IMG/VR virus record: IMGVR_UViG_3300014502_000022
Coordinates: 1 to 32,548 of that record
Length of the DNA stretch: 32,548 nucleotides
From: a virus
Direction: 5' to 3' (one strand)
The notes under the pieces are model-generated. The model worked only from the letters and a program-made list of their open reading frames with translations. It was not told where the DNA came from and did not search any database. This document shows, in pieces, positions 265 through 15,048 of the stretch (positions are counted from its first letter, which is position 1; every line of letters begins with the position of its first letter). The position numbers and the translations under genes are program-made.

Positions 265-813
265 ATGATTGAACTTATTCAGAATCAGCAAACCCCTCAG
301 GCAGAGGAGACAGCAGACCCCATTATCGACAAACAGTTAATTGAAGAGTGCCTCAAGTTCGTAGAGACACTTGATGACTGTGCCGGGTTATCAGCAAATC
401 AACTAATGAAAGACGGCTACCGGATTAATAAACGGTTCTTCTTTGCTGTCAAGTCAGCAGACAAACATGAGTTCGTAACAATCCTTAACCCGGTCATACA
501 TGAGTATTACGGGAAGACGGCCACTACCATAGAGGGCTGTCTCTCTCATGGGGGAGACAAAAAAGACGGAAGGCGAATTTACGTCAGCCGGTATCATGGA
601 ATCCGGGTAACCTATATGGATATGTGGGGAGAGAAATATACCGGGGAATTTGAGGGCTTTTCATCTCAGGTATTTCAGCATTGTACCGATCATCTTAACG
701 GGGTAAAAGAAAAGTTCATGGATGAGACTCAGGAAAACAAGCAAGGGCGAAACGAACCCTGTAGATGTGGCTCAGGTCTCAAGTATAAAAAATGTCACGG
801 TTCACTTAACTAA
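265..813 (+). CDS. Peptide deformylase-like protein with C-terminal SEC-C zinc motif
   Basis: 182 aa. The three peptide deformylase signature regions are in order: motif I C-A-G-L-S-A-N-Q (39-46, normally GxGLAAxQ), motif II E-G-C-L-S (90-94) and motif III Q-H-C-T-D-H-L (138-144, normally QHExDHL). The metal ligands Cys92, His139 and His143 are present, but the catalytic glutamate of HExxH is a cysteine (codon TGT). Deformylases remove the formyl group from nascent peptides at the ribosome, and loss of this Glu is expected to abolish or alter that activity. A SEC-C zinc motif follows at 161-178 (CxC, eight residues, CH), a module also found on SecA and YecA-type proteins; as a tail here it could act as a docking device. 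It is the first gene after promoter P1. The fold assignment is firm; catalytic function is doubtful. Confidence 0.85.
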   Translation: MIELIQNQQTPQAEETADPIIDKQLIEECLKFVETLDDCAGLSANQLMKDGYRINKRFFFAVKSADKHEFVTILNPVIHEYYGKTATTIEGCLSHGGDKKDGRRIYVSRYHGIRVTYMDMWGEKYTGEFEGFSSQVFQHCTDHLNGVKEKFMDETQENKQGRNEPCRCGSGLKYKKCHGSLN

Positions 814-818
814 ATTAT

Positions 819-1379
819 ATGAAATCAACTTCTTTACCCTTGGCAAAGATCAAGGGGAACTCAGGCCAAATAAAAGGCCTACCACGAAACCCCCGGTTCA
901 TCAAGGATGACCGATATCAAAAACTGAAACAGTCTATAATCGACCTCCCGGAGATGCTTGACCTCAGGGAATTAATTGTCTTCCCCCACAAAGGGGAATT
1001 TGTCGTTATAGGGGGAAATATGAGACTGATGGCACTCAAGGAATTGGAGCATAAGACAGCCCCCTGTAAAGTGTTGCCTGAAACGACCCCGGTTGATGTA
1101 TTGAAAGCGATTACGATCAAGGATAATATCAACTATGGCGAACACGACTTTGAGGCTCTTCTCAATGAGTGGGATAAAGATATCATAACTGATTGGGGGG
1201 TAGAGGTAGACGGATTCGCTTTTCAGCCGTCCTTCAGCCCGGAGAAATCCGGTAAGGAAATTACACAGGCTGACATGGAAAAGGCGCAGGGTAAAATTGA
1301 CGGAGGCTTTACCGGGGTCAAGCCTAAAATTGAGGTAACGTGCCCCGAATGTGGTAATTCATTTTATATCAATCAGTAA
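819..1379 (+). CDS. ParB/sulfiredoxin-fold protein 1 with C-terminal CxxC
   Basis: 186 aa. The ParB-like N-terminal domain is recognised from N-P-R-F at 24-27 followed by a helix rich in charged residues, a D-L-R-E-L-I-V strand near 48-54 and the hallmark I-G-G-N-M-R-L-M-A-L (64-73), equivalent to the GxxRxxA nucleotide-binding box. A C-terminal segment around 175-182 carries C-P-E-C-G, half a zinc ribbon. Such domains occur in phage genes associated with DNA methyltransferases, in partition proteins and in nucleases; enzymatic activity cannot be read from sequence. It starts five bases after the deformylase-like gene, and its stop overlaps the next ATG (taATG). It is one of three ParB-fold genes in this operon and the most divergent of them. 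Confidence 0.8.
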   Translation: MKSTSLPLAKIKGNSGQIKGLPRNPRFIKDDRYQKLKQSIIDLPEMLDLRELIVFPHKGEFVVIGGNMRLMALKELEHKTAPCKVLPETTPVDVLKAITIKDNINYGEHDFEALLNEWDKDIITDWGVEVDGFAFQPSFSPEKSGKEITQADMEKAQGKIDGGFTGVKPKIEVTCPECGNSFYINQ

Positions 1380-1654
1380 TGACAGAAAGAGCATTAATTC
1401 AGTTTCTTGAGGCGAACACATGGACGTTCGCAAAGACAATGCCGAAGACCCCCCATTGGTATATTGTCAAGGACAAATGTACTGACTCTGACCTTTTTGT
1501 AGAGGCAGTTAAACTTCTTCAGAAAATAGGAATCCCTGAAAAGTTTGGTAAAGCGACATTCAAATATTATGTGATCGGAGAGTTCAAGTATTGGACTAAT
1601 GGATATCCCCCTGACATGACTACGATCATAAATAGATTCAAGCCTGAGGTATGA
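1379..1654 (+). CDS. Small conserved-looking phage protein, function unknown
   Basis: 91 aa. I do not recognise a named family. Visible features are an aromatic stretch P-H-W-Y-I-V near 25-30, a helix around 38-50, and a C-terminal Y-W-T-N-G...T-T-I-I-N-R-F pattern (about 71-87) that I associate with small phage proteins of unknown role. There is no signal peptide, membrane segment or metal motif. It is translationally coupled on both sides (taATG upstream, ATGA downstream), so it belongs to the modification-type operon. It could be an accessory subunit of the neighbouring ParB or methyltransferase proteins, but that rests only on position. Confidence 0.65.
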   Translation: MTERALIQFLEANTWTFAKTMPKTPHWYIVKDKCTDSDLFVEAVKLLQKIGIPEKFGKATFKYYVIGEFKYWTNGYPPDMTTIINRFKPEV

Positions 1655-2208
1655 TTTATAGCATTGAATACTGTCATGTCTATACCGACAAAGGGGTAGA
1701 TGAACAGGCTGAGAACTCAATTACGATCCTGAAAGATGTTCTTAAAGATATCAGGGAAGAGGAATTTGAGTTGGCTGTAATGGTTGATGACTATACCCCG
1801 GCAAATTGTGAGTTCAGCTATAAGCAGTTCATTGAGTTTATTTCAGCCCGAAATGCTACCCCCTCAATCCTTATCAAAGAAAGCTCTTTGCTATTGATGA
1901 ATGAGGTCACTCTTAACCGGATGCCTGAGGGTAAACTCAAGCAGTCATATATAACCTATATTTCAGGCAAGGGGCTTCATCCGTGTTCCCTGTTTGTCGC
2001 AACATGGTATCTGATCCGGTTGGGATGGATTCAGCCCGGGAAATTAGAGACAGTAATCGATACCGGATTCCGGGTTGCTGACAGGCTGATCAACATCTTG
2101 CCTGTTCACTTTTTAGAGGCTGAAAACAAGGCCTCAAAGATTCTTCGATCAATCGGTGTTCCTGTATCTAAACTTATAACAAATATCTACATTGAAGACA
2201 AAAAGTAA
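1651..2208 (+). CDS. Hypothetical protein in modification-type operon
   Basis: 185 aa; not recognised. It is a soluble-looking, mixed alpha/beta protein with no signal peptide or membrane helix. It opens with a Y-S-I-E-Y-C-H-V strand, has an acidic V-M-V-D-D-Y-T-P segment near 43-50 that could be a beta-strand plus acidic turn, and a hydrophobic middle around 112-128. The start ATG overlaps the preceding stop (ATGA), and its end overlaps the TTG start of the NNMT-type methyltransferase by 17 bases. This tight coupling suggests it is made with, and perhaps acts with, that methyltransferase. Confidence 0.65.
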   Translation: MIYSIEYCHVYTDKGVDEQAENSITILKDVLKDIREEEFELAVMVDDYTPANCEFSYKQFIEFISARNATPSILIKESSLLLMNEVTLNRMPEGKLKQSYITYISGKGLHPCSLFVATWYLIRLGWIQPGKLETVIDTGFRVADRLINILPVHFLEAENKASKILRSIGVPVSKLITNIYIEDKK

Positions 2209-2911
2209 CCCTTGGCCTAAGTTTAACCCGGCTGAATATGTCAGGAAAAACTATGAGAAAATGTCTATTCCCGATGTAGTGTTGGCTACTCATCTGATTG
2301 AATGGAATAGTGTTCATGGTAGATCAGGTCAGATATTGGAAATAGGGGGTGCAGTTAATCTCTACCCGATCTTTATTATGTTGCCCTTTTTTGAGAAAAT
2401 AATTGTTACCGATATCGTAGATGAAAATCTTTGGTATTTAAGATCACAACAAAGGGAAATGGATACCCTTTGGCGTCAATATATCGGCCTGATCAGAACT
2501 CTTAATGATAAGTTTTACAATTTTGATTTTCAGACAGCCCTCCGGGAACGGGTTACTGTCAGATCGTTATCAATCTTTGATATTGAGAAAGAGCGATACA
2601 GTCATATCTCTATGAACTTCGTTGCTGAGAGTATCACAGATGACCCGGATGAATTTGTCCGGGCTTGTAATTGTGTTATGGCAGGGCTTAAAAAAGGGGG
2701 TTATCTTACCGCATCATTTATGTCAGGTAGCCGGGGCTACGTGGTTAACGGGGTTGACTTCCCGGCCGTAGCCATTGATCCTACGGGGGTAGCTGACACG
2801 TTCAGGGCTATGGATGACCTACGGGTCAGATATATACCAATATTCGGCAAACCGCTTAGAAATGGCTATAACGGTATTATTCACTTAACAGCTAAAAAGA
2901 ATGGAAAATAA
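2192..2911 (+). CDS. NNMT/PNMT-type SAM-dependent methyltransferase
   Basis: 239 aa from a TTG start; a later in-frame ATG at 2261 would remove an N-terminal Y-x(n)-Y region typical of this family, so the TTG is preferred. The Rossmann methyltransferase core shows I-L-E-I-G-G-A (motif I, about 48-54), an acidic I-V-T-D-I-V-D strand (motif II), and the family-specific block N-F-V-A-E-S-I-T-D-D (about 142-151) followed by a G-G-Y-L strand. Relatives in the NNMT/PNMT/TEMT superfamily methylate small amines, nicotinamide or thioethers rather than DNA. The substrate here is unknown. It is surrounded by ParB-fold, glycosyltransferase-like and DNA-methyltransferase genes, so a role in preparing or decorating a modified nucleotide is possible but inferred. 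Confidence 0.7.
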   Translation: MKTKSNPWPKFNPAEYVRKNYEKMSIPDVVLATHLIEWNSVHGRSGQILEIGGAVNLYPIFIMLPFFEKIIVTDIVDENLWYLRSQQREMDTLWRQYIGLIRTLNDKFYNFDFQTALRERVTVRSLSIFDIEKERYSHISMNFVAESITDDPDEFVRACNCVMAGLKKGGYLTASFMSGSRGYVVNGVDFPAVAIDPTGVADTFRAMDDLRVRYIPIFGKPLRNGYNGIIHLTAKKNGK

Positions 2912-3638
2912 ACTTGGTATGATTGTGATCCTGAATTGTGAAAGACGAAAACAGGAAGGTCAGTATATGTATAAACTTTTAGAGATGAACGCTAAGGCCT
3001 TAGGGATTCCGGTAGTCATCAGTTTTGATGATGGCTCTCTTCATATTTGGGGAAACTTCAGACAGGCCTTACAGATCGGAGAAAACAAAGGAACTCATAG
3101 AATGATCATTCATGATGACGTTAGTATTGACAGGCTTGCGATTGAGAAAGCGATTCATATCTTGAATTATCTCCCGGCTGACTCTTATCTCAGTATTTAT
3201 AACCCGGACAATTCAGACTATCGGAAAGCCCGGGCAGAGAAGAAGCGGATCCTACAAACAAAAACAAACTTTTGGCTTCAGGCCTGTATTTATCCTGACA
3301 ACCTTTGTGCTGACTTCCTGAATTGGGTTGACGCTAATGTAGCCCCTGAATACCCATACGAAGACGGAAGACTCAGCCCGTTTATAGACACTCAGGAAAA
3401 GACAATGTTTGCAGTTGTTCCCGGGTTGGTTCAGCACTTTGGGGCTTATAGGTCTACATTTAAACAGGGGGGAGTCGTTGCCGGGCATAAACGCTACTCC
3501 GCAACGGTTAACGGATCGCAGAATGTCAAGGACGTGGATTGGGAATCTGAGTTTAAGAATCCTTTTATGGCAAAGATGAAGACAGATAATTATCTCACTA
3601 AATTGCAAAAGAAAAACTTGGAGGCAGGGCTATGTTAG
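2901..3638 (+). CDS. Glycosyltransferase-like protein (GT-A type, putative)
   Basis: 245 aa. It begins with an I-V-I-L-N-C-E-R-R strand, then R-M-I-I-H-D-D-V (about 67-74), which resembles the acidic metal/nucleotide-sugar site of GT-A glycosyltransferases. The C-terminal half has V-V-P-G-L-V-Q-H-F-G (about 172-181), a pattern I associate with phage glycosyltransferase-like proteins. A predicted role is transfer of a sugar to DNA, a protein or a surface glycan; no acceptor can be deduced. It overlaps the methyltransferase by 11 bases and the next ParB-fold gene by seven. Its location in the accessory operon, away from the fibres, makes DNA or nucleotide decoration worth considering. Confidence 0.55.
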   Translation: MENKLGMIVILNCERRKQEGQYMYKLLEMNAKALGIPVVISFDDGSLHIWGNFRQALQIGENKGTHRMIIHDDVSIDRLAIEKAIHILNYLPADSYLSIYNPDNSDYRKARAEKKRILQTKTNFWLQACIYPDNLCADFLNWVDANVAPEYPYEDGRLSPFIDTQEKTMFAVVPGLVQHFGAYRSTFKQGGVVAGHKRYSATVNGSQNVKDVDWESEFKNPFMAKMKTDNYLTKLQKKNLEAGLC

Positions 3639-4057
3639 CAGACAGGATCGCAAACGACAAAATTGAAAAGACTTCCGGGAAACTCACTATTGATTATGTT
3701 CCGGTCAAAGATATCTATCCGAATGAGTATAACCCGAATCAGCATACGGCTGATAGTTTTGACCTACTCATCAAAAGTATTGTTTATTTCGGGTTTACTC
3801 AGCCGATAGTGGTTCACAGGGCTACTATGAAGATAGTTGACGGGGAAAACAGATTCAGGGCTGCCTGTATCTTAGAGATGGAAGAAGTGCCTGTTTGTTT
3901 CGTTGACTTTGATCCTATCAAACTCAGGTTTGCAACTATAATGCACAACCGGGCAAGGGGCAGGGAGAATCAGGAATTGATTACCCGGCTCTATGATGAA
4001 CTTGATAAGGCAGACACAGATTACAAGAAACTTTTATTACTTGATCGCAATGAGTAA
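3632..4057 (+). CDS. ParB/sulfiredoxin-fold protein 2
   Basis: 141 aa, essentially a single ParB-like domain. Signature elements are N-E-Y-N-P-N-Q (31-37), G-F-T-Q-P-I-V-V (54-61), I-V-D-G-E-N-R-F-R-A-A (68-78) and M-H-N-R-A-R-G (104-110). It shares YNPNQ, TQPIV, VDGxxRF and HNRARG with the third ParB-like protein (from 5724), so the two are paralogues or drawn from one family, while the first is more distant. The ATG lies just after a good Shine-Dalgarno-like ggagg (3620-3624), unusual in this window. The next gene, a DNA methyltransferase, starts inside its last codons, implying coupled production. ParB-methyltransferase pairs are common in phages; the ParB partner may guide or license the enzyme, which is inference. 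Confidence 0.82.
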   Translation: MLADRIANDKIEKTSGKLTIDYVPVKDIYPNEYNPNQHTADSFDLLIKSIVYFGFTQPIVVHRATMKIVDGENRFRAACILEMEEVPVCFVDFDPIKLRFATIMHNRARGRENQELITRLYDELDKADTDYKKLLLLDRNE

Positions 4058-4586
4058 AAACTACAACAAAGACATTATGTCATGGGAGTCCTTTCCGGGA
4101 CATGATCTGATATGGTGCGACCCCCCTTGGGAGCAGAAGATGGTAAACTTCTTTCAGACTAAATTGAAGCAGGATTCAGGCCGGGTAGCCAACAATACCA
4201 TTGAGGGCATTATTGATCAGTTGGCTAAATTGGCCTCTACTGAAAAGCCTTGTTATGTCGAATACGGAATGGCCGGGCATCAGCTTGTTCTTGATAAGAT
4301 GAAAAAGAGGGGTCATGCACTCAATTTTATCAGTCATGGAATCCAAACATCAAAACGGCCTTTCGTTATCATGTGCTTTAATACAAGCGTTCCGGCTAAC
4401 GTCAACAGATCAGGCTTGAATATCGTAACCGATACCCTGATGGATTTTCAAGGAAAGGGGATAGTCTTTGATCCATTTGCCGGGATCGGAGTAACGGCTA
4501 CGGCTGTCAGAAAAGCCGGGTGGGAGTATATAGGCTCAGAAATTAATCCGGCTCGTTATCACAGGCTAATGCAAGCGAATCCATGA
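4050..4586 (+). CDS. DNA N-methyltransferase (DPPW type)
   Basis: 178 aa from the ATG at 4050, which overlaps the ParB-like gene by eight bases; a longer version from 3993 would only add residues out of register with the domain. Catalytic motif IV C-D-P-P-W (23-27) precedes the SAM-binding motif I F-D-P-F-A-G-I-G (140-147), the beta-class order of exocyclic amino methyltransferases. The expected product is N6-methyladenine or N4-methylcytosine; DPPW is commonest in adenine enzymes. The protein is short, with little space for a target-recognition domain between motifs, so site choice may need a partner such as the adjacent ParB-like protein. Typical phage use would be protection from host restriction. 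Confidence 0.85.
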   Translation: MSKNYNKDIMSWESFPGHDLIWCDPPWEQKMVNFFQTKLKQDSGRVANNTIEGIIDQLAKLASTEKPCYVEYGMAGHQLVLDKMKKRGHALNFISHGIQTSKRPFVIMCFNTSVPANVNRSGLNIVTDTLMDFQGKGIVFDPFAGIGVTATAVRKAGWEYIGSEINPARYHRLMQANP

Positions 4587-5761
4587 AAATCTTTACAAAA
4601 CAAAACGTCTTTGATGCAGCCCTTGAAAGGATCAGGCTCTTATATGATGAGTTTCCCCATGTCGTAGTCTCGTTTTCCGGGGGGAAGGATTCTACTGTTT
4701 GTTTTGAGTTGACAAAGATCGTTGCCCGGGAAAGAGGTCGTTTACCCCTCAAGGTTGTCTTCATGGATCAGGAAGCGGAGTGGCAAGCGACAGTTGATTT
4801 TATGAGGGAGGTAATGTCAGACCCGGACGTAGACCCTTATTGGTTTCAGGGAGAGTTTCAGATCACTAACAACACTTCCGGGGATGATCATTGGTGCTAT
4901 TGTTGGAAGAAAGGAGACGAATGGATCAGGCCTAAGGAAGATATCTCAGTCAAGGAAAACACATTCGGAACGGTCAGGATCAAGGAAATCCTTGGCAAGA
5001 TAATCGACAGCCTATACCCGGATGAACCTGCTTGTTACATAGCCGGGGTCAGGGCTGAGGAAACTCCTGCACGAACTTTAGGCCTAACATCAGACCCGAC
5101 ATACAAGTATATCACTTGGGGCAAAAAGATGAATAAGGCTCTGAATCATTACACGTTTTACCCTATCTACGATTGGTCATATACTGACATTTGGAAAGCG
5201 ATCTTTGTAAATGATTGGCCTTATAACAAACTGTATGATTACATGTATCAGCATCAGATACCTATTCAGCAAATGAGGGTATCATCTGTTCATCATGAGG
5301 GGGCTATCGCTACGCTTGGATTTCTTCAGGAGATTGAGCCGGAGACATGGAACGCCCTGACTAAAAGACTACATGGCGTAAACACAGCCGGGCAGGGAAC
5401 AAAAGACTTTTTTCAGGTAAAGGAATTGCCTTTCATGTTTGACACATGGATTGAATACCGGGATTACTTACTTGAGAATCTTGTAGAGTCTGAGGACTAT
5501 CGTAAGATATTCAGACGCACCTTTGCACACATGGATAAACGCTACATCAGGGGTAATGATATGCTGACAGAAAAGTATATCAAGGAATGTATCTCTGAGA
5601 TTCTAACGGTTGACGTAGAGATGGTAAAGCTGAATAACTTCAAGAGACGGCCTGAGACTAATGGTTGGCTTAAATGGAAAGAGTTGGGGAGAGAACCCCG
5701 GGTATTAAATAAATTCGTTGAGTATGAAAGAAATAATAAAGCTGATTCTTCGAAAGTATAA
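4583..5761 (+). CDS. PAPS-reductase/PP-loop ATP pyrophosphatase (IbrA/YbdN-like, DUF3440)
   Basis: 392 aa. The PP-loop S-G-G-K-D-S lies at 32-37, and a G-V-R-A-E-E motif at 155-160 is typical of the PAPS reductase-like family. A C-Y-C pair at 105-107 could bind metal. Length and the tryptophan/tyrosine-rich middle (I-T-W-G-K, Y-P-I-Y-D-W near 177-198) match the DUF3440 group that includes E. coli YbdN and IbrA. PP-loop enzymes adenylate a substrate, and relatives include DndC of the DNA phosphorothioation system. Exact chemistry for IbrA-like proteins is not established. The following ParB-like gene reproduces the ibrA-ibrB (ybdN-ybdM) arrangement. ATGA overlap with the DNA methyltransferase places it in the same operon. 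Confidence 0.85.
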   Translation: MKIFTKQNVFDAALERIRLLYDEFPHVVVSFSGGKDSTVCFELTKIVARERGRLPLKVVFMDQEAEWQATVDFMREVMSDPDVDPYWFQGEFQITNNTSGDDHWCYCWKKGDEWIRPKEDISVKENTFGTVRIKEILGKIIDSLYPDEPACYIAGVRAEETPARTLGLTSDPTYKYITWGKKMNKALNHYTFYPIYDWSYTDIWKAIFVNDWPYNKLYDYMYQHQIPIQQMRVSSVHHEGAIATLGFLQEIEPETWNALTKRLHGVNTAGQGTKDFFQVKELPFMFDTWIEYRDYLLENLVESEDYRKIFRRTFAHMDKRYIRGNDMLTEKYIKECISEILTVDVEMVKLNNFKRRPETNGWLKWKELGREPRVLNKFVEYERNNKADSSKV

Positions 5762-6392
5762 AGAGTCAGAGAACAAAATTGAATTCCTGAATGACCTTCG
5801 GGAATTTATTCATTCAGAGTTATCAGAACTCAAGGGTCAGCCCGTAGACTTTGTGAAATGGGTCCCGGCTGATATGGTTAAGGCAAATGACTACAATCCT
5901 AATCAGGTTGCCCGGGTAGAGATGAAACTGTTATATACTTCAATTCTCCATGATGGCTACACTCAGCCAATAGTAACAGTCTTCGACAAACTGAATAACA
6001 AATACGTCATAGTTGATGGATTCCATAGATTCTTTACACTGAAGGAGAATAAAGATATCTTTGACCGCAATCAGGGTATGTTGCCCGTAGTCGTTATTGA
6101 CAAAGATATAAATGACCGAATGGCCTCTACTGTGAGACATAACAGGGCAAGGGGAAAACACTCTGTAAAAGGAATGTCAAGCATGGTATTTGAGATGTTG
6201 AATAATGGTTGGTCAGATGAGGCTATCTGTAACAAACTTGGAATGGAGCCAGAGGAATTACTGAAGCTGAAACACATTACCGGGTTCTCAAAACTGTTTA
6301 AGGATACGGAGTACGGTCTTGCATGGGTAACTAAGCATCAGATATTATTGAAGAAGGGTTATTTTGAAACATTGAAAAACGCTGAGAAATGA
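5724..6392 (+). CDS. ParB/sulfiredoxin-fold protein 3 (IbrB/YbdM-like)
   Basis: 222 aa from the ATG at 5724; a TTG two codons upstream is possible. The ParB-like core spans roughly 40-145 with N-D-Y-N-P-N-Q (55-61), Y-T-Q-P-I-V (79-84), V-D-G-F-H-R-F (97-103) and R-H-N-R-A-R-G-K-H (138-146). The C-terminal part (about 150-222) contains a helix-turn-helix-like W-S-D-E-A-I-C-N-K-L-G-M stretch. It overlaps the IbrA-like gene by 38 bases, as expected for an IbrA/IbrB pair. In E. coli IbrA and IbrB were described as activators of immunoglobulin-binding protein genes; in phages such pairs are widespread and their job is unknown. DNA binding is plausible from the HTH-like segment. Confidence 0.82.
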   Translation: MKEIIKLILRKYKESENKIEFLNDLREFIHSELSELKGQPVDFVKWVPADMVKANDYNPNQVARVEMKLLYTSILHDGYTQPIVTVFDKLNNKYVIVDGFHRFFTLKENKDIFDRNQGMLPVVVIDKDINDRMASTVRHNRARGKHSVKGMSSMVFEMLNNGWSDEAICNKLGMEPEELLKLKHITGFSKLFKDTEYGLAWVTKHQILLKKGYFETLKNAEK

Positions 6393-6646
6393 ATTACTAC
6401 AAGGCACTTGAATTAGCTGATGACACAGGTAAGGGTATTCGTAAGTTTCAGTTTACGCAAACCAATGATGACAGTACATGGGCTGTAGGCTATTGTGCAA
6501 TCAATAGGTGTAAGCATGATTCTGCAATAGAGGCCTCTGACTGTTATCGTAAGTATTGCCGGGAACACAATCATGGTAACTTACCCGGGGGATTTCCGTT
6601 AGAGTCAGAAGACGGAACTGAATTGGTATTCTATGGAAGTTATTGA
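6389..6646 (+). CDS. Small hypothetical protein
   Basis: 85 aa; not recognised. It contains four cysteines and four histidines in its central part (G-Y-C, R-C-K-H, D-C-Y-R, Y-C-R-E-H-N-H), a spread that could form a zinc site though no canonical spacing is evident. No signal peptide or membrane helix. Its ATG overlaps the ParB-like gene stop (ATGA) and it is followed by another small gene with a four-base overlap, so it is co-translated within the operon that runs into the terminase genes. Confidence 0.6.
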   Translation: MNYYKALELADDTGKGIRKFQFTQTNDDSTWAVGYCAINRCKHDSAIEASDCYRKYCREHNHGNLPGGFPLESEDGTELVFYGSY

Positions 6647-6885: not shown

Positions 6886-7263
6886 ATGAGCTACACTATC
6901 CAACAAACTGCACTTAAAAAAGATTTGATGATCAAGGCAATGGTCAAGCGACTCGGAGTTGTTACCAATGCCTGTAAGGATGCAGACATTGACAGGTCAA
7001 CGCATTATGATTGGATGAAGGCTGATGACGCTTACCGGGAGGCCATTGAATCAATAGCAGAGATCACGCTTGACTTTGCTGAATCCAAACTACTTGCCCG
7101 GATCGACAAACAGGACATTACGGCAATTATCTTCTACCTGAAGACAAAGGGCAAAAAGAGGGGATATGTTGAAAGACAGGAAATACAGCATGAGGTTGTT
7201 ATTGAGACTGAAGCCCTAACATCAGCCCGGAAACGAGCAATGGAGATACTTGAACAGAAATGA
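6886..7263 (+). CDS. terS: Terminase small subunit
   Basis: 125 aa. The N-terminal half holds a helix-turn-helix: G-V-V-T-N-A-C-K-D-A-D-I then D-R-S-T-H-Y-D-W-M-K (about 24-46), the homeodomain-like DNA-recognition unit of many phage small terminases. The later A-I-I-F-Y-L-K-T-K-G-K-K-R-G-Y (about 84-98) is a strong family signature. The C-terminal helix (about 108-125) would interact with the large subunit. It recognises phage DNA for packaging and loads the motor. The stop overlaps the large subunit start (ATGA), a standard arrangement that confirms the identification. Confidence 0.88.
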   Translation: MSYTIQQTALKKDLMIKAMVKRLGVVTNACKDADIDRSTHYDWMKADDAYREAIESIAEITLDFAESKLLARIDKQDITAIIFYLKTKGKKRGYVERQEIQHEVVIETEALTSARKRAMEILEQK

Positions 7264-8717
7264 CAGATGACGAATTAGCATACGGCCTGTTGGCTGACTA
7301 TTATAAATTCTTCCAATGGTGTTGGCCTATTTTGTCAAATGAACCCCTTGTGCCGAATTGGCATATCAAAGTCTTAGCACACAGATTGCAGTATATCGGG
7401 ATGCACATTGTCAATCAGACTCAGCCTGATTACCTCACAAACTTATTCAGCGTTCCCCCGGGGTCTACGAAGTCATCTCTGATCAGTCAGGCATGGATTA
7501 ATTGGATGTGGCTACTTAACCCGGGAATCAAGATGGCGAATATCAGCTACTCAGGAGACCCGGCATTAAAAAACAGTTTCGTAGCAAAACAGATATTCAG
7601 GTCTGAGGCTTTCAATAAACTTTTCGGGGGTATTATCAGGAAGATGCATGGGAAAGACATTGAACTGATCAAAGACCTGACAGATGATTGGGAGAATAAC
7701 TTCGGGGGAAAGTATTTCTGCACATCAGTCATGGGTCAGGCTACCGCTTACCATTTCCACGTATTGGTCTTTGACGATGCAATGAACGCTGCCATAGCTG
7801 ACTCAGACACAAAGAGGGAGACGTCAAACAGGATGCACGACTTCACGTTCCCAACCCGTAAGATCAATAAGGCTATTGCCCCGTCAGTCTACGTAGGACA
7901 GAGGTTGCACGATAATGACACGATAGGTCATGTAATGAAGAAAGACGAACCCTACTATTATCTCTGCCTCCCTGCTGAGGAGTCAAGCCGTATCAGCCCC
8001 CCGGCTCTCAGGGCAAACTATGTAGACGGGTTACTTGACCCGATCCGGCTAAACAGAACAGTCCTTGCAAAGTCGAAAAGAGACTTAGGCTCTTACGCTT
8101 ATTCCGGTCAGTTTAATCAGAACCCATCTCCTGAGGGTGGAGGGATGATCAAAACGGCATGGCTAATCAAGGCTCTTCCTCAGGTCATCTACGAAAAGGT
8201 TAAGTGGTATGTGTTTATAGACGGGGCTTACTCAGAGAACACAAAGAATGACCCCTCAGGTATTATGTTGTGCGGAGTATGGCAGGAGAAACTTATAGTC
8301 AGATTTTGCACATCAAAGTTTGTAGAGATTCAGGATTTGATAAAAGAGATCACAGGCTTATTCATGGTCTTCAAACTACCTAAGCAGACAACTATTTACA
8401 TTGAACCTAAGGCATCAGGAAAGTCACTTAAACAGTTATTGACTAAGGCCGGGTATAATGCCGTAGAGATCAGCAGTTATCTTGTAGGAGAGAATAAGAC
8501 AGGCAGGATCAATCTGACAATCCCTTACGCTGAGGCCGGGCGAATAACCTACATTGAAGGGGCATGGAATCATGAATGGATTCATCAGTTGACAGCTTTC
8601 CCAAAGGCAGATCATGACGAATATGTAGACTTAACAGGCTATGCCACAGAGCGACTACTCCATAATGTAGACACAGTTACAGCAGACATGGAAGTTAATC
8701 CTTCAGAGTTTTATTAG
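7260..8717 (+). CDS. terL: Terminase large subunit
   Basis: 485 aa, full length for the family. The ATPase domain has Walker A V-P-P-G-S-T-K-S (65-72) and Walker B V-L-V-F-D-D-A (168-174), with the coupling/arginine region V-G-Q-R-L-H-D-N-D at 212-220. The linker Y-S-G-Q-F-N-Q-N-P-S-P-E-G-G-G (281-295) is characteristic of this terminase group. The RNase H-like nuclease domain begins with F-I-D-G-A-Y-S (319-325) and a second acidic site near D331; a final Asp lies in the N-V-D-T-V-T-A-D tail. It drives DNA into the prohead and cuts the concatemer. It ends with TAG directly followed by promoter P2, so it probably closes the first transcription unit. Confidence 0.95.
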   Translation: MTDDELAYGLLADYYKFFQWCWPILSNEPLVPNWHIKVLAHRLQYIGMHIVNQTQPDYLTNLFSVPPGSTKSSLISQAWINWMWLLNPGIKMANISYSGDPALKNSFVAKQIFRSEAFNKLFGGIIRKMHGKDIELIKDLTDDWENNFGGKYFCTSVMGQATAYHFHVLVFDDAMNAAIADSDTKRETSNRMHDFTFPTRKINKAIAPSVYVGQRLHDNDTIGHVMKKDEPYYYLCLPAEESSRISPPALRANYVDGLLDPIRLNRTVLAKSKRDLGSYAYSGQFNQNPSPEGGGMIKTAWLIKALPQVIYEKVKWYVFIDGAYSENTKNDPSGIMLCGVWQEKLIVRFCTSKFVEIQDLIKEITGLFMVFKLPKQTTIYIEPKASGKSLKQLLTKAGYNAVEISSYLVGENKTGRINLTIPYAEAGRITYIEGAWNHEWIHQLTAFPKADHDEYVDLTGYATERLLHNVDTVTADMEVNPSEFY

Positions 8718-13951: not shown

Positions 13952-14323
13952 ATGGCAAAATGGCAACTTGACACAATTCTTGATCAGGCTCTTGAGTACA
14001 TTGCGAATAATGTAACACAGGAAACAGTCTGTTCAGCACAGCCGGCAAACTATACTGAGGCAGTCACTACTTTTATGTTGGCCCGGAAGACGGGGTTGAC
14101 CTCAGGCTCGTTTACCTTAGGGAATGGCGACACTTCAGGCCGGAAGCTATCAATCGGTCAGCAACCGACAATACCTGTCTCTAACGGAGGCACAGCAACC
14201 CATGTGGCCTTATGCTCAGGGTCAGTTTTATTGTATGTCACTACTTGCACCCCTCAGCCAATAACCGGGGGTAACACAGTCACTATTCCGGCTTGGGATA
14301 TTGAAATAGCGGATGCCTCATGA
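13952..14323 (+). CDS. Conserved phage protein, probably virion-associated
   Basis: 123 aa. The pattern G-G-T-A-T-H-V-A-L-C-S-G...L-L-Y-V-T-T-C (about 80-100) and the closing I-P-A-W-D-I-E-I are features I associate with a small phage protein family often found beside tail-fibre genes; no biochemical function is known to me. It is beta-rich with no signal peptide or membrane helix. The start follows the holin-like gene by four bases and the stop overlaps the glycosyltransferase start (ATGA). Its position among fibre and envelope genes suggests an appendage component. Confidence 0.6.
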   Translation: MAKWQLDTILDQALEYIANNVTQETVCSAQPANYTEAVTTFMLARKTGLTSGSFTLGNGDTSGRKLSIGQQPTIPVSNGGTATHVALCSGSVLLYVTTCTPQPITGGNTVTIPAWDIEIADAS

Positions 14324-15048
14324 AGAAAACAATTTATACGCTGAACGTCAACGGCTATTCTCCTAAGATTACCCGGTTGACGTTTCCTCTTTTAAGGTAT
14401 TACGCCAACAAAATTGGAGCAGACTTTCATATCATAGATGAACGCAAATTCCCGGACTATCCTGTAACCTATGAAAAGTTTCAGATTTATAAACTTGGTC
14501 AGATCGCTAAGAATGATTGGAACATCTACATTGACGCTGACGCTTTGATTCATCCTGAAACCCCTGATTGGACTGAGCATCTTCACAAACAGACGGTAGC
14601 CCATAACGGGTTTGATATGGCAAATGTAAGATGGAGGTATGATGATATTTTCCGAAGAGATGGTCGGAATATCGGATCATGTAATTGGTTCACTATCGGC
14701 TCAGATTGGTGCATCGACCTGTGGCATCCTTTGAGCATCTCTCTTCAGGAAGCCCTTGACAATATATTCCCAACAGTTGATGAGGCGAAACTTGCTCTCA
14801 AAGACGGGAGGCTGAAAGCTGTCGTTACCCGGGAACACTTAATAGATGACTATACTGTCTCCCGGAACATAGCCCGGTTCGGACTAAAGTTTACGACTAT
14901 TCATGATCTTCAGGAGAAGATAGGCTTAAAAAACGGAGTCTTCCATTGGCATTTGTATAACATCACAGAGGATCAGAAACTTGAAGAGTTATCAAAGGTT
15001 ATAGCTGAATGGGAGATACCTGATTCAATAAAAAACTTCGGTTTGTAA
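14320..15048 (+). CDS. Glycosyltransferase (GT-A fold, DxD)
   Basis: 242 aa. The N-terminal strand Y-T-L-N-V-N-G-Y is followed by a K-F-Q-I-Y-K-L segment and then W-N-I-Y-I-D-A-D-A-L (about 67-76), where D-A-D is the metal/nucleotide-sugar binding DxD of GT-A enzymes. The C-terminus has the acidic/His region G-V-F-H-W-H-L-Y (about 206-213). It transfers a sugar from a nucleotide donor; the acceptor is unknown. Being among fibre genes, it may modify host surface glycans or virion proteins. It is not closely similar to the glycosyltransferase-like protein at 2901. It ends just upstream of promoter P3. Confidence 0.75.
   Translation: MKKTIYTLNVNGYSPKITRLTFPLLRYYANKIGADFHIIDERKFPDYPVTYEKFQIYKLGQIAKNDWNIYIDADALIHPETPDWTEHLHKQTVAHNGFDMANVRWRYDDIFRRDGRNIGSCNWFTIGSDWCIDLWHPLSISLQEALDNIFPTVDEAKLALKDGRLKAVVTREHLIDDYTVSRNIARFGLKFTTIHDLQEKIGLKNGVFHWHLYNITEDQKLEELSKVIAEWEIPDSIKNFGL

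Follow-up and report, generated by a model that had tools for sequence, protein, structure and literature searches.

What nine overlapping genes are doing together upstream of a phage terminase is the question raised by positions 819–6392 of the virus record IMGVR_UViG_3300014502_000022 (IMG/VR), which is 32.5 kb long (32,548 nucleotides; the window below). The cassette encodes three ParB-fold proteins, a DUF3440 PP-loop enzyme, a DPPW methyltransferase (MTase), an NNMT/SCO2525-like methyltransferase, a GT-A glycosyltransferase (GT) and two proteins referred to as u1379 and u1651. It is probably a variant of a phage modification pathway with a modular build, which would most likely act on the phage's own DNA or nucleotides before packaging and so make host restriction fail. 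That the genes form one multi-step modification unit, and are not a chance assembly, is well supported by comparative sequence evidence, namely synteny, swappable group-transfer enzymes and gene fusions. The initial annotation had proposed a multi-step DNA modification pathway; the single unit stands on these grounds, whereas DNA as its substrate is still argued from context.

Recurrence of the module and exchange of its enzymes

Four loci found via the PP-loop enzyme (IbrA) or the MTase (L002–L005) carried the order ParB1-u1379-GT-MTase-IbrA-IbrB, with the MTase before the GT in L002. The terminase small subunit gene (TerS) was present in L003–L005, and its homologues lay directly after IbrB in L003 and L005. 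The ordered set ParB1-u1379-GT-MTase-IbrA-IbrB-TerS recurred in unrelated contigs, with most genes at 30–60% identity and the GT at 15–18%. Virus contigs were also scanned with u1379 as the sole bait, using pattern-based scans that favor conserved u1379 copies, and 98 distinct loci were obtained after removal of duplicates. IbrA was found in 91 of the 98 (median gap 574 bp, maximum 1945 bp), IbrB in 78 and a ParB gene in 87, the last being a loose count, as the hidden Markov models were built iteratively and those for ParB overlap. Several of the seven loci lacking IbrA stop at a contig edge. The module is widespread in viruses and commonly adjoined terminase genes.

The closest counterpart of the window was L110, from a Bacteroidota assembly, in which ParB1-u1379-u1651-NNMT-GT-IbrA-IbrB follow the window order without ParB2 and MTase. 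Conservation of the gene set as a block, proposed as a check in the initial annotation, was seen for the core genes, which recur in order, but not for the pair of NNMT-like MTase and u1651, which was found in L110 and in no other locus. Single-protein scans for the NNMT-like MTase and the GT found nothing. Outside the u1379 loci, IbrA is rare. Over 50,697 phage records, IbrA was matched in 215 and IbrB in 218, with a nearly equal host breakdown. The 296 genomes searched from the phylum that includes L110 gave three strong IbrA matches; the many weaker ones, which cover short PP-loop stretches only, were taken as other PP-loop enzymes such as CysD.

The module is also present in a cultured phage. 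Microbacterium phage Hendrix encodes two GTs (gp154, E value 9.9e-33; gp155, 1.7e-12), a u1379-MTase (gp156, 5e-27), a GNAT (gp157) and IbrA (gp158, 4e-103), followed past the genome end by IbrB (gp1), ParB (gp2 and gp3) and the terminase large subunit (TerL, gp5). Profile searches recovered the Hendrix GT and u1379, and tblastn of cultured phages with the MTase and the L003 u1379 found nothing. Cultured Salgado and 031MP002 carry IbrAB with an annotated methyltransferase, and FCV-1, Gaia, D4276 and PhiR5_2 carry IbrAB without other module genes. In Streptococcus phage D4276 (L073), IbrAB is preceded at a distance of approximately 2 kb by an annotated anti-CRISPR gene (AcrIIA5, 1217–1639), which hints at an anti-defense neighborhood.

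At least one group-transfer gene was present in 96 of the 97 loci carrying both u1379 and IbrA. Over these 97 loci, DPPW MTase was counted in 52, GNAT in 33, GT in 29, a long u1379 open reading frame in 25 (a length proxy, mostly for a fused class I MTase) and AdoMet decarboxylase in 14, giving fifteen combinations. Further enzymes seen in the module were a second GT-like family, a TylF-like MTase and a possible oxygenase. AdoMet decarboxylase lies between ParB1 and u1379 in L003 and L005 (Pfam 3.8e-21 and 7.1e-22), and in one locus, L021, the module includes a pyruvoyl-dependent arginine decarboxylase (5925–6455, 1.4e-48). On the IbrA tree, counted without a shuffled baseline, the state of the GT changed at least 22 times, as expected of swapped decorators, and that of the GNAT at least 16 times. 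Module genes were also found fused, as AdoMet decarboxylase-u1379 (L018, 5257–5940), u1379-class I MTase (L021 and Hendrix gp156) and GT-DPPW MTase (L025/L182). Located between GT and IbrA, the members of a small family (L168, 1755–2276; L222, 2098–2598; L227, 7818–8318) share an HxD...H pattern and give very weak matches to cupin/Asp-Arg-hydroxylase; the family is possibly an oxygenase making a hydroxyl for the GT.

In bacteria, u1379 occurs fused to other domains, to a class I MTase in 16 of 41, to GmrSD_N in five, to PD-(D/E)XK in two, to NUDIX in one and to ADP-ribosylglycohydrolase in one. GmrSD_N and PDDEXK domains occur in restriction enzymes, and the bacterial fusions carrying them are candidates for such enzymes and may be cognate to the phage mark. 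Fusions to GmrSD_N or PD-(D/E)XK were seen at L102 7956–9788 (also with DUF7834), L122 4297–6849, L127 5784–8258, L116 7983–9425 and L081 7944–9407. In an archaeal assembly (L108, 934–2385), an N-terminal u1379 is joined to an ADP-ribosylglycohydrolase domain (5e-81).

Proteins of the cassette

The genes all lie on the + strand, and neighbors overlap by 1–38 nt, in agreement with the single overlapping operon initially annotated. The cassette is bounded by a peptide-deformylase-like gene (265–813) and the terminase genes (6886–8717).

The genes at 4583–5761 and 5724–6392 were annotated initially as a PAPS-reductase PP-loop enzyme and a ParB-fold protein; both assignments were right, but their identity was missed. 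They belong to phrog_2302 (4.9e-83) and phrog_2159 (7.5e-72), the families of the known but biochemically uncharacterized IbrA/IbrB pair. IbrA is a DUF3440 PP-loop ATPase (motif SGGKDS) with PF01507 (PAPS reductase, 9.3e-16) and PF11922 (DUF3440, 8e-10) above cut-off; IbrB is its ParB-fold partner (DGFHR, HNRARG). In an alignment of 106 IbrA sequences, the PP-loop motif and acidic/aromatic positions were near-invariant and no cysteine was conserved, the best cysteine column reaching 69%. The nearest solved relatives of IbrA are CysD (2.6e-7), FAD synthase and GMP synthase, which work by adenylating or otherwise activating a substrate. IbrA also resembles BrxP (4.9e-12) and DndC (1.9e-7), which act on DNA. 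An assignment as assimilatory PAPS reductase (CysH) was rejected, as the conserved C-terminal redox cysteine is missing and the TIGR00434 (cysH) score of 24 bits lies below the cut-off of 165. DndC, PAPS reductase and tRNA thiolases need conserved cysteines; since IbrA has none, persulfide chemistry is unlikely and plain adenylation followed by attack of a nucleophile appears more likely.

The ParB folds predicted initially at 819, 3632 and 5724 were recovered by profile matches. ParB1 (819–1379; phrog_17622 1.5e-41) combines a ParB/Srx fold and GGNMR nucleotide motif with a CPECG zinc-ribbon-like C-terminal tail, and ParB2 (3632–4057; Pfam ParB_N 3.1e-11, phrog_620 1.4e-24) is a single-domain ParB fold (DGENR, HNRARG). 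All three proteins (819, 3632, 5718/5724) keep the G-x-x-R motif; nucleoside triphosphate (NTP) binding by ParB folds goes through a conserved P-motif arginine (PMC12704722). Canonical ParABS partition was ruled out, as the ParBs have 141–224 amino acids and no helix-turn-helix match, and the genes at 265–6392 include no ParA. ParB1 homologues are present in L002–L005, L110, Leptospira phage LE3 and Hendrix (gp2/gp3). In LE3 (L006, 6079–7700), a ParB1 homologue (52% identical) and, after it, a gene annotated as GNAT lie upstream of the terminase, and the stretch of L006 that was read contains no IbrA; this arrangement is possibly a reduced version of the module.

The two proteins for which the initial annotation had named no family, u1379 (1379–1654) and u1651 (1651–2208), are real genes, as judged by their conserved homologues. 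The module marker u1379 is a 91-amino-acid domain (FAKTM..PH...YW...INR in a 36-sequence alignment), and its AlphaFold model reached a pLDDT of 93. Comparison with the PDB gave no convincing match (best Z 3.5), so neither a fold name nor a new fold is claimed. A u1651 homologue of 56% identity occupies the same position in L110, and the searches found none beyond it; u1651 is listed as the partner of the NNMT-like MTase. That enzyme (2192–2911, TTG start) is a class I S-adenosylmethionine methyltransferase, 46% identical to its L110 counterpart. The NNMT type initially assigned to it was confirmed by Pfam (NNMT, 9.2e-9); its match to the SCO2525 family (NF040568, 1.7e-45) falls below the curated cut-off of that family.

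The protein at 2901–3638 was folded because its sequence match (phrog_854 'glucosyltransferase', 0.008) was too weak by itself. An AlphaFold model from 16 homologues (pLDDT 86) was searched with Foldseek, and the top matches, which include Mimivirus R655, POMGnT1 and EXTL2, were GT-A glycosyltransferases throughout. VIA-align gave a Z of 16.7 over 217 residues (root-mean-square deviation 3.7) to GlcNAc-transferase I (1foa) and a Z of 14.1 to Mimivirus R655. Invariant in the 16 sequences were R16, D72-D73 (metal-binding acidic pair), H179 and S185. On the evidence of the model, the protein is a GT-A-fold glycosyltransferase, as its initial description as GT-A-like had anticipated. A second window protein (14320–15048) looks glycosyltransferase-like by eye ('YIDADALIHPETPDW'); it lies amid structural genes and has no Pfam match.

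The small DPPW MTase probably occupies 4050–4586 (Pfam N6_N4_Mtase 7.5e-9), the start at 3993 having been dropped for the ATG at 4050, where homologues (33–53% identical) begin. The motif order, DPPW (motif IV) and then FDPFAGIG (FxGxG, motif I), is that of the beta class and bears out the DNA-type methyltransferase predicted initially. From this ATG, the protein has approximately 178 amino acids, with no space between the motifs outside the catalytic core and so no target-recognition domain of its own. Its closest solved relatives are DNA adenine MTases, DpnA being nearest (8.5e-5). Adjoining MTase pairs in module loci mostly comprise one DPPW copy and one degenerate copy, an arrangement that resembles METTL3/METTL14 and suggests an active/inactive heterodimer. 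In the tandem pairs of L023, L027, L159, L205 and L216, one member retains DPPW, whereas its degenerate partner reads TDLPW or SEPPY or lacks the motif.

Outside the proposed pathway, the terminase genes downstream comprise a small (6886–7263) and a large subunit (7260–8717; Pfam Terminase_6C 1.4e-8), also on the + strand. In the upstream peptide-deformylase-like protein, which has a SEC-C tail, the catalytic H-E-x-x-H motif reads HCTDH (Glu to Cys), and this protein may be inactive or repurposed.

Proposed chemistry and alternative explanations

If the cassette modifies phage DNA or nucleotides, the PP-loop of IbrA would serve to adenylate an oxygen, either of a carbonyl or of a phosphate, that belongs to a base, nucleotide or small donor, and the adenylated position would then be attacked by a nucleophile. 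An amine may serve as nucleophile or donor, as suggested by the pyruvoyl decarboxylases (AdoMet decarboxylase and once arginine decarboxylase) co-encoded in several loci. The ParB-fold proteins would be NTP-dependent DNA-engaging or switching subunits, and GT, MTase and GNAT would cap or decorate the installed group; the putative decorators in the window are the GT, the DPPW MTase and the NNMT-like MTase with u1651. The module would thereby hide phage DNA from bacterial defenses. We infer DNA or nucleotide as the substrate from the location of the module by the terminase, from the closeness of the MTase to DNA adenine MTases, from the relationship of IbrA to BrxP and DndC, and from the bacterial fusions of u1379 to class I MTase, GmrSD_N, PDDEXK, NUDIX and ADP-ribosylglycohydrolase domains. 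More tentatively, the module may define a new class of DNA hypermodification, in which a base or backbone adenylated by IbrA is joined to, for example, a decarboxylated amine and capped by GT, GNAT or MTase, and to which hosts answer with u1379-GmrSD or u1379-PDDEXK enzymes that recognize or handle the mark.

A target other than DNA, such as tRNA, a virion or host protein or a small molecule, is unlikely. PP-loop enzymes commonly use tRNA or metabolites, the nearest solved relatives of IbrA are CysD, FAD synthase and GMP synthase, small molecules are the substrates of NNMT-type MTases, and the GT-A model matches protein glycosyltransferases; against this, the relatives of the DPPW MTase, the ParB folds, the terminase-proximal position and the u1379-GmrSD/PDDEXK fusions point to DNA. 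It is quite improbable that IbrAB regulates late phage gene expression or packaging and that the transferases have gathered as unrelated passengers in a hot spot that precedes the terminase. The ibrAB genes are reported to be named after activation of prophage eib genes, and the module stands beside the terminase in many phages. However, group-transfer enzymes are near-universal in the u1379 loci and sometimes fused to each other or to u1379, and random passengers would not be expected to bring a few recurring enzyme classes to one location. A sulfur modification (phosphorothioate backbone or thio-base), with IbrA acting like DndC/SspD, is very unlikely. The matches to BrxP and DndC and the family name, PAPS reductase, speak for it, but the IbrA homologues lack the conserved cysteines of DndC and PAPS reductases, and the cassette yielded neither a cysteine desulfurase nor a DndD/DndE or SspB/C-like gene. 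The sulfur-containing product that had been suggested initially was therefore not borne out.

Several observations weigh against modification of phage DNA or nucleotides as the role of the cassette. Among the window genes scanned (the record may be incomplete), no nucleotide hydroxymethylase, hydroxymethyl-base kinase or polymerase-level replacement enzyme was found. Decarboxylases, which are missing from the window, were seen in no more than 14 of the 97 loci. Many phages hold IbrAB without other module genes, and the core IbrAB step may therefore run by itself and serve another purpose; activation of prophage eib genes is the only reported IbrAB phenotype (Sandt 2002, as cited elsewhere). 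Mantel correlations inside the block (0.39–0.75) did not clearly exceed the correlations with TerS (0.73 for IbrA); these tests show co-inheritance, not independent mobility, and do not separate block transfer from vertical descent or packaging-gene ancestry.

Related systems and implications

The nearest described counterpart is the ibrAB island of E. coli ECOR-9, which has the same DUF3440 PP-loop protein and adjoining ParB-fold partner from the same families. The function reported for it is eib activation only, and no description was found of the pair in a cassette with u1379, GT, GNAT, decarboxylase or MTase. Dnd, Ssp and type 4 BREX have in common with the module a PAPS-reductase-clan PP-loop ATPase and, in Dnd, a ParB-superfamily partner (DndB); the module differs in an IbrA without conserved cysteines and in its added sugar, methyl and acyl transferases. 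Searches of the ten genes at 265–6392 (Pfam, NCBIfam, PADLOC) detected no DndD/DndE or SspB/SspC family. The phage cassettes for hypermodified thymidine and glycosylated cytosine follow a like logic, with one handle and then interchangeable caps (GT, GNAT, MTase). They begin from a hydroxymethylated nucleotide, whereas the recurring core of the module is PP-loop, ParB and u1379. Mom of phage Mu is a GNAT-fold enzyme devoted to phage DNA (adenine) modification; the module GNATs, absent from the window, match Pfam Mom marginally in one case (0.049) and accompany IbrAB. GmrSD/SspE restriction enzymes have a ParB-fold domain in common with the cassette, and their GmrSD_N domain is the one fused to u1379 in bacteria, but nuclease domains, HNH or other, are absent from the phage cassette.

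In the literature found, IbrAB appears as an annotation or an eib activator only, phage PAPS reductases as putative sulfur-metabolism genes or without a settled function, and the ParB fold as a generic unit for NTP binding. Full-text searches returned no account of the module; Iyer et al. 2013, the likeliest prior survey, lay outside these searches and could hold a partial prediction. Hypermodification by a handle with swappable caps is already known, and the version built on IbrAB, ParB1 and u1379 is new as far as checked.

If the proposed pathway is correct, the sulfur-metabolism annotation of phage PAPS-reductase genes would be wrong for the IbrA family, the long-unexplained IbrAB pair of more than 200 sequenced phages would gain a role, and a set of new nucleoside structures would be expected. 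The bacterial fusions of u1379 to restriction-enzyme domains would be candidate counter-defenses, and cultured phages such as Hendrix render the module testable.

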